From: Lachnospiraceae bacterium
GTDB taxonomy: Bacteria; Bacillota; Clostridia; Lachnospirales; Lachnospiraceae
Length of the DNA stretch: 64,000 bases
NCBI GenBank assembly: GCA_022791575.1
Contig: JAAVZI010000039.1
Location: 1-64,000 of the forward strand
Direction: 5' to 3'
Numbering within the stretch: position 1 is the stretch's first letter; the number at the start of each line of letters is the position of its first letter. Of this stretch, positions 9,529 through 23,577 are shown one piece after another. The notes under the pieces are model-generated. The model was not told the DNA's origin. It saw nothing but the letters and a program-made list of their open reading frames with translations, and ran no database searches. The translations under genes were made by a program, and so were the position numbers.

Positions 9529-9924
9529 TTAGACTCTTCTGCGTTTTGGCGGACGACATCCGTTATGCGGCACCGGAGTAACGTCTCTGATGCTTGTCAC
9601 TTCCAGTCCACAAGCCTGAAGCGCACGAATCGCTGCTTCTCTTCCTGAACCTGGACCCTTAACCATAACTTCCACTGTCTTTAAACCATACGGCAGAGCT
9701 GCTTTTGTCGCAGTTTCTGCTGCCATCTGAGCAGCATAAGGAGTAGATTTCTTTGAACCTCTAAATCCCAGACCACCGGCACTTGCCCATGAAAGAGCAT
9801 TTCCTTCCATATCGGTTAATGTAACAATTGTATTATTAAAGGAAGACTGAATATGTGCCTGTCCGCGTTCAACGTTTTTTCTTACACGCTTTTTTGTCAC
9901 TTTTTTAGTAACTTTTTTAGCCAT
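9529..9924 (-). CDS. rpsK: Ribosomal protein S11
   Basis: 131 residues. 30S platform protein near the mRNA exit. Conserved [33 protein letters not shown] and the C-terminal [12 protein letters not shown] are all present. Lys/Arg-rich start ([16 protein letters not shown]). 24 bp after rpsM and 22 bp before rpsD, in the usual alpha-operon order. Confidence 0.97.
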
Positions 9925-20082: not shown

Positions 20083-20472
20083 TTATTTCTCATTCAGCAC
20101 GATTGTAATGTGACTTGTTCTCTTCTCGATTCTATAAGCCCTGCCCTGTGCCCTTGGTCTGATTCTCTTCATTGTAGGTCCTTTATTTGCATAACATTCC
20201 TCAATATAGAGGTTTTCCGGGTTCATTCCGTTATTATTCTCTGCATTTGCAATTGCAGATTTTAATAACTTCTCAATCAAGCTTGATGCATATCTCGGAT
20301 TATAAGCTAAAATACCAAGCGCTGTCTGTACGTCTTTTCCTCTAATTGCGTCTAAAACGAAGCATGCTTTCTGTACAGAAACTCTGGCATAAGATAATTT
20401 TGCTGTTGGTCTGGTCTCTTTTGTTCTTTCGTTTCTTTCACGTTTAATTTGGGATCTATGTCCTTTTGCCAC
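20083..20472 (-). CDS. rplV: Ribosomal protein L22
   Basis: 129 residues. 50S protein whose long beta-hairpin lines the exit tunnel and is a macrolide-resistance site in other bacteria. ALGILAYNPRYASSLIEKLL, NAENNNG and the hairpin tip region KGPTMKRIRPRAQGRAYRI are present. Preceded by an unusual 179-bp spacer made of repeated hairpins. Confidence 0.97.
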   Translation of the reverse strand: MAKGHRSQIKRERNERTKETRPTAKLSYARVSVQKACFVLDAIRGKDVQTALGILAYNPRYASSLIEKLLKSAIANAENNNGMNPENLYIEECYANKGPTMKRIRPRAQGRAYRIEKRTSHITIVLNEK

Positions 20473-20486
20473 GACTAGAACCTCCT

Positions 20487-20640
20487 TTCATATTCTAAAG
20501 CCCTGTTTTTAGGGCAGCTTGGTACACTCGCAGAGTGTTTCATTATTTGACGTCCTGTATCACAGGACATATTGCACACCCAAAGGTGTTTCATATTTTA
20601 AAGCCCTGTTTTCTAGGGCAGCCTAGACACCCGAGGGTGT
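20487..20640 (-). repeat. Three tandem double-hairpin units between rpsS and rplV
   Basis: The spacer holds three units of about 50 bp, each with hairpin A then hairpin B then TTTCATATT-like sequence (plus strand). A stems: 20500-20504/20511-20515 (GCCCT/AGGGC), 20552-20557/20563-20568 (GTCCTG/CAGGAC), 20603-20607/20615-20619 (GCCCT/AGGGC). B stems: 20524-20529/20533-20538 (ACACTC/GAGTGT), 20576-20580/20585-20589 (ACACC/GGTGT), 20627-20632/20635-20640 (ACACCC/GGGTGT). Bases change between units but pairing is kept, which argues for selection on structure. No T-tracts follow, so they are not simple terminators. Confidence 0.8.
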
Positions 20641-20651
20641 TTCTCTATTTA

Positions 20652-20933
20652 TTAACGAACTTTTGATTTCTTCTCGTCTTTACCATGTCCTCTGTAAGTT
20701 CTGGTTGCAACAAACTCTCCAAGCTTATGTCCAACCATATCTTCCGTTACATACACCGGAACATGTTTTCTTCCATCATGAACTGCAAATGTATGGCCAA
20801 CGAATGATGGGAAAATCGTAGAACGACGTGACCATGTTTTGATCACAGACTTATTCCCTGATTCGTTCATAGCATCTACTTTCTTCAATAAACTTGCGTC
20901 AGCAAATGGTCCTTTCTTCAGTGAGCGAGCCAT
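20652..20933 (-). CDS. rpsS: Ribosomal protein S19
   Basis: 93 residues. 30S head protein that pairs with S13. [39 protein letters not shown] and [18 protein letters not shown] are all typical. 18 bp after rplB and followed by the repeat-filled spacer before rplV. Confidence 0.97.
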
Positions 20934-23419: not shown

Positions 23420-23577
23420 TAATAATACCTCCTGTTTTAATCTACAGCGGAACATGGATTCCCATGTTCATCCTAGAACAGTCAATATAAGTGGAACTTA
23501 TGGCTGTGCTTTATGTATCCGCATTGCCATTTACTGTTGCTTCTATATAAACCCTTCAGGATTGTCTCTTCTTAAAA
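23420..23577 (-). other. Hairpin-rich spacer between rpsJ and rplC
   Basis: No gene. Plus-strand inverted repeats include GAACATG / CATGTTC (about 23451-23470) and nested ATAAGT / ACTTAT inside ACAG / CTGT (about 23478-23506). This gap is larger than the usual tens of bases between rpsJ and rplC. Terminator T-tracts are absent. Confidence 0.5.

Follow-up and report, generated by a model that had tools for sequence, protein, structure and literature searches.

The stretch of DNA analysed here, referred to as the window, comprises 64,000 nucleotides of a Lachnospiraceae genome (contig JAAVZI010000039.1, assembly GCA_022791575.1) and carries the S10 operon on its minus strand. The intercistronic gap between rpsS and rplV of this operon extends over 179 nt, compared with a median of about 30 nt in Lachnospiraceae, and is composed in mRNA sense of three tandem units with lengths of 52, 51 and 52 nt. 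All of them consist of a hairpin A of the ACACC/GGUGU type, a linker of 7–8 nt, a hairpin B of the GCCCU/AGGGC type and a tail rich in A, which reads AAUAUGAAA in units 1 and 3. An earlier note based on the sequence alone had described three tandem hairpin-pair units at this place, and both sequence and coordinates were confirmed; the array RNA corresponds to the strand opposite to the one used there, and its units follow in the reverse order. The features are listed below, R1 and R2 denoting the two covariance models introduced later; the hairpins were defined by sequence, folding and pair scoring.

20652–20933, minus strand: rpsS (S19), the upstream gene
20473–20651, minus strand: rpsS–rplV intercistronic gap holding the array, 179 nt
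20589–20643, minus strand: unit 1, the 5'-most in the mRNA, matched by R1 with 47.5 bits
20627–20640, minus strand: hairpin A of unit 1, ACACC-CUCG-GGUGU
20603–20619, minus strand: hairpin B of unit 1, GCCCU-AGAAAAC-AGGGC
20537–20592, minus strand: unit 2, the most diverged, recognized by sequence and by alignment with the family; R2 counts three matches in the window genome
20576–20589, minus strand: hairpin A of unit 2, ACACC-UUUG-GGUGU
20552–20568, minus strand: hairpin B of unit 2, GUCCUG-UGAUA-CAGGAC, with a compensated change
20486–20541, minus strand: unit 3, adjoining the Shine-Dalgarno (SD) sequence, matched by R2 with 62.3 bits and by R1 with 78.9 bits, R1 itself having been built from this unit and one unit of genome G001
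20524–20538, minus strand: hairpin A of unit 3, ACACUC-UGC-GAGUGU, with a compensated change
20500–20515, minus strand: hairpin B of unit 3, GCCCU-AAAAAC-AGGGC
20481–20489, minus strand: GAAAGGAGG, where the tail of unit 3 passes into the SD sequence of rplV, as judged from the sequence and from the same junction in relatives
20083–20472, minus strand: rplV (L22), the downstream gene, with a GTG start
24119–24039, minus strand: S10-Clostridia ribosomal-protein leader (RF03136), an Rfam match

The program TRF reported the array unprompted (20486–20643, period 51, 3.1 copies, score 147, 66% matches) as one of only two tandem arrays in the window; the other is a 12-bp repeat, CTTTTTTAGTAA, present in 2.8 copies at 9889–9920. 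Folding of the gap RNA yields −54.8 kcal/mol (z = −3.5), a value reached by none of 200 shuffled sequences. In units 1, 2 and 3 the stems of hairpin A are ACACC/GGUGU, ACACC/GGUGU and ACACU/AGUGU and those of hairpin B GCCCU/AGGGC, GUCCU/AGGAC and GCCCU/AGGGC, respectively, and all 30 scored pairs are intact. Between the units 15/32, 9/34 and 16/34 of the unpaired positions differ but only 2, 2 and 4 of 20 stem positions, each of these being compensated, so that the pairing-preserving exchanges pointed out in the earlier note hold without exception. At a divergence of 10–15% per unit, the chance of finding 30/30 pairs intact is 0.006–0.0005. The rpsS–rplV array with its three units is the only site of this kind in the window genome and has kept all of its stems, which argues, on the basis of the sequence, that the stem structure is useful at this locus.

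The unit is not restricted to the window. Model R1 was derived from two units, one of the window genome and one of G001, the only other genome of the genus examined, which contains two units in the same rpsS–rplV gap. R1 matched 57 of 397 Lachnospiraceae genomes at E ≤ 0.1, with E values down to 2.5e-11 in genomes outside the model's input; many positive genomes have matches at several places as well as tandem matches spaced by about 52 nt. Model R2, built from 40 units, detected the unit at E ≤ 1e-4 in 57/397 Lachnospiraceae genomes and 49/334 genera, and in a phylum-wide sample of 398 genomes matches were confined to the window genome and one marginal case (7e-4). Because few candidates per genome are scored in either wide scan, the copy numbers obtained from them are minimum values. 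Upon fuller scoring, 3 units were counted in the window genome, 3 in G001, 24–29 in G016 and G364, 54 in G076 and 55 in G397. The expansion is lineage-specific: G395 contains at least 149 units (149 of 150 scored candidates) and G090 of the same genus 3. Neither the array nor canonical copies match Rfam 15 at curated thresholds or at permissive E-values, and the literature searched, with subscription journals thinly covered, holds no account of such a repeat family. The units apparently constitute an undescribed family of small RNA-structured repeats in gut Lachnospiraceae.

The consensus of the family unit comprises GAAA, which is also the most frequent 5' tetranucleotide, hairpin A, the linker UACC(A/U)NNAUG, hairpin B and a purine-rich AANAAGGAA tail. 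In an alignment of 40 units, which was fitted to the covariance model, 89% of the pair cells are standard pairs, compared with 15–42% in slid controls; 46 cells are changed on both sides versus 14 in shuffles, and the covariation score amounts to 0.319 versus 0.123 in shuffles and at most 0.075 in slid controls. A structure-free MAFFT alignment of 31 units returned the same two hairpins as predicted fold, with compensatory changes in 6 of 8 pairs. The repeated RNA element postulated between rpsS and rplV is thus supported by its fold, its compensated stems and the covariation in relatives. The best conserved unpaired part is the linker, in which A, U and G of the AUG are each found in 97–100% of 156 units and the CC in about 95%; window units 1 and 3 have CUG at the AUG position. 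The frame opened by the conserved AUG ends within the unit in 54/84 arrays, and a leader peptide starting there was rejected in view of the early stop and of the lack of a frame coupled to the downstream start.

The position of the units was analysed for 91 distinct arrays (151 units, about 30 genomes), the neighbouring genes being ORF calls of the present analysis and not curated annotation. In 85/91 arrays, no more than 60 nt separate the 3' end from a sense start codon, with a peak at 10–17 nt, compared with 14/91 when the same test is applied to the opposite strand. Random positions are a poor null (58%) because in-gene ATGs are counted, and the argument therefore rests on the peak of distances and on the opposite-strand control. 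Two or more units are present in 39/91 arrays. Usually the tail continues into GGAG; some arrays have the SD sequence within the tail itself. The downstream genes code for functionally unrelated products, among them L2 (rplB), S17 (rpsQ), L22 (rplV), S11 (rpsK), RimP, adenylate kinase (adk), the α, β and b subunits of ATP synthase (atpA, atpD, atpF), PheS, thioredoxin, anaerobic ribonucleotide reductase (nrdD), FeoA, ferritin and transporters. An RNA element within the S10 operon, as previously described, is thus retained, but it is not specific for that operon and lies dispersed before the SD sequences of many genes across the family, where its stems continue to covary.

The arrays appear to lie in transcribed leaders, since that before feoA follows a −35/−10-like promoter and a dyad, that of G090 follows a promoter-like sequence, and at L272 (genome G332) a T-box leader is placed directly upstream of three units preceding pheS. 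Their hairpins do not occlude the SD sequence, whose mean unpaired probability is 0.595 compared with 0.561 behind a shuffled leader (p = 0.09). Several units may be found within one operon: a single S10-operon region (contig C93 of G279; L036, L267) carries arrays before rplB, rplV (degraded) and rpsQ, and a single ATP-synthase operon (contig C32 of G261; L270, L158) carries units before atpF, atpA and atpD.

Comparison of related genomes indicates how the arrays change. G395 carries the element at two syntenic sites, the DHOD-B-subunit gap and the region upstream of feoA, which lack it in G090, the loci being compared at about 73% DNA identity. Such a presence/absence pattern at orthologous sites is expected of a mobile element; acquisition by a common ancestor with later loss from G090 is the less parsimonious alternative. 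In G016 and G364, which are about 92% identical, comparable orthologous arrays are shared and differ in unit number: before adk, one unit corresponds to two identical ones (an exact 52-nt duplication), and before rpsK, one unit corresponds to a lone hairpin B. Unit identity is 76% between tandem neighbours, 68% between units elsewhere in the same genome and 62% between genomes. This gradient, together with the differences in unit number, fits a spread within lineages accompanied by tandem gain and loss.

No mobilizing enzyme linked to the unit was found. The Y1 transposase (PF01797) is absent from G395, G261, G247, G405, G001 and G090 as far as these incomplete genomes reach, and its absence from G395, the highest-copy genome, led us to reject a RAYT/Y1 transposase as mobilizer. 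The units are bordered by GAAA on both sides as a rule, the 5' copy overlapping the stem, so that a clean target-site duplication is not demonstrable, and no long terminal inverted repeat of MITE type was seen. Phage and plasmid records contained no match to a G395 array, nor did viral contigs contain two consensus patterns of the repeat. As a separate observation, some copies of the two-hairpin unit in G200 (L259, L260, L261) are part of a repeat about 334 bp long, the ends of which form inverted repeats (AGGTAATTGCGAAACT) and which has many near-identical matches across contigs; it accounts for only those copies of G200.

On the basis of these data we propose, with a probability of roughly 0.6, that the array is a single site of an interspersed repeat of the Lachnospiraceae which settles 5' of SD sequences, changes in tandem, is tolerated there and has its structure maintained by selection. 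In this scenario, units would settle in sense orientation directly 5' of the SD sequence of a gene, either in an mRNA leader or in an intercistronic gap, with the unit tail merging into or supplying the SD sequence. Subsequently, whole units of 50–52 nt would be gained or lost in tandem. The repeat would be tolerated because both hairpins are self-contained and initiation is left open, the SD sequence being about as accessible as behind a shuffled leader. Hairpins in place would then be kept by selection on their structure, the most likely role being that of a folded mRNA segment which separates the ribosome binding site (RBS) from the upstream message. We infer that the dispersal arose by mobility with a target linked to the SD sequence, and that any effect of the units might concern translation or mRNA stability. 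Mobility alone does not explain the upkeep of the units, because the structure is retained at the single locus of the window genome.

A more far-reaching version, which we consider tentative and somewhat less probable than not, regards the unit as a mobile structured element that actively targets RBSs, recognized via an SD-like DNA target or in an RNA step, inserts there exclusively in sense orientation and multiplies head-to-tail. If so, a genome would gain more than 100 copies of one shared folded mRNA leader in front of its genes.

The units might instead form a host post-transcriptional regulon, each serving as leader operator for a putative protein or RNA and their number tuning the response. 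The single-stranded linker, as conserved as the stems, the recurrent sites in ribosomal-protein and ATP-synthase operons (rplB, rplV, rpsQ, rpsK, atpA, atpD, atpF) and the preservation of structure where a genome has one array only would suit such an operator. However, the tagged genes are functionally unrelated, the copy number rises from 3 to at least 149 within one genus and the element is missing from the relative at both sites compared between members of that genus, which renders a regulon unlikely. The probability appears still lower for an mRNA processing or stability element, whose hairpins would be cleaved or would block exonucleases and thereby make the cistrons on either side decay at different rates, an effect reported for ERIC and NEMIS repeats (PMC2229807). 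The intercistronic position, the compact stems and the sense orientation would be compatible with this function, but some arrays reside in first-gene leaders behind a promoter or a T-box and not between cistrons. Moreover, stems of about 5–6 bp are short substrates for RNase III.

Very improbable, in our view, is a bistable leader in which strand A' and the linker pair with the 5' strand of hairpin B (GGGYAUACC..UAUGCC), such that hairpins A and B alternate with a middle hairpin. Of the cells of the middle helix, 88.5% are paired, compared with 21–61% in slid controls; this helix is the more stable form in 13/40 units and would account for the frequent C-A mismatch in helix A. Nevertheless, no pair is changed on both sides, shuffles perform equally and the helix is broken in window unit 3 (4/7 pairs); the pairing may thus follow from sequence conservation alone. 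A purely local tandem duplication of non-functional S10-operon sequence, to which the tandem units with 66% matches and the exact duplications changing unit number elsewhere might point, is refuted by the dispersed copies, the unit preceding many other genes in 57/397 genomes with compensated stems.

Mycobacterial interspersed repetitive units (MIRUs) also occur in tandem and are oriented along the neighbouring gene. The Lachnospiraceae repeat resembles them as a short repeat at the translation start from which little disturbance of expression is expected, and as interspersed tandem units directed along the downstream gene. It differs in host bacteria and apparently in sequence, in its two covarying hairpins 5' of the SD sequence and in the lack of a conserved coupled ORF. 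MIRUs, which appear to be mobile, are inserted at start codons, hardly affect expression there and contain an internal ORF coupled to the gene (PMC12548453). In analogy, we favour a comparable logic for the Lachnospiraceae repeat, which would be tolerated with initiation left intact. REP elements and BIMEs share with it the small hairpins, the high lineage-specific copy number and the clustering. REPs, however, carry GTAG or CGTC tags and form few head-to-tail dimers, the GTAG type accompanying RAYT genes (PMC3733652), whereas the unit described here has a 5' GAAA instead of such a tag at the hairpin foot, head-to-tail tandem copies, a site upstream of the SD sequence and no Y1 transposase in G395. 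ERIC and Correia/NEMIS elements are likewise small, structured and gene-associated, and their co-transcription with genes allows the RNA structure to affect the neighbouring mRNA (PMC2229807); they are MITE-like and about 100–170 bp long, in contrast to a tandem unit of about 52 nt that hardly varies in its position and orientation with respect to the SD sequence.

Known small bacterial repeats mostly lie between genes at loose positions, whereas here a single covarying unit keeps a fixed place just ahead of translation starts. It does so in numerous unrelated leaders of a major gut family, and sister species differ in the number of units. The resulting natural series of 0, 1, 2, 3 and up to 6 units before like sites offers a test of how leader structure sets expression, and it becomes testable how RBSs are located by a repeat for which no transposase is visible.

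Another structured RNA within the S10 operon of the window is RF03136, the leader of the operon, which the array fails to match; in addition, the unit precedes non-ribosomal genes. A location before ribosomal-protein genes only, as expected of an autoregulatory leader, is not observed in view of adk, atp, pheS, nrdD, feoA and many others. At about 158 nt, the rpsJ–rplC gap (23420–23577, minus strand) is long as well; it includes an inverted repeat, GAACATGGGAATCCATGTTC, and has no match to the covariance model of the two-hairpin unit. Among five S10-operon gaps compared, that between rpsS and rplV is most often long (over 60 nt in 25/111). Other GC-rich structured inserts occupy it at L004, L008, L074, L084, L087, L106, L109 and L110, all from Lachnospiraceae and some Acetatifactor-like; those tested gave no Rfam match, and several contain a CACCCGAGAGGGG-like sequence closed by AACGCA...UGCGUU. 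At L084 and L109, the gap holds sequence similar to the 3' end of rpsS, either as additional copies or as remnants, a picture that would result if the end of the gene had been duplicated in tandem.
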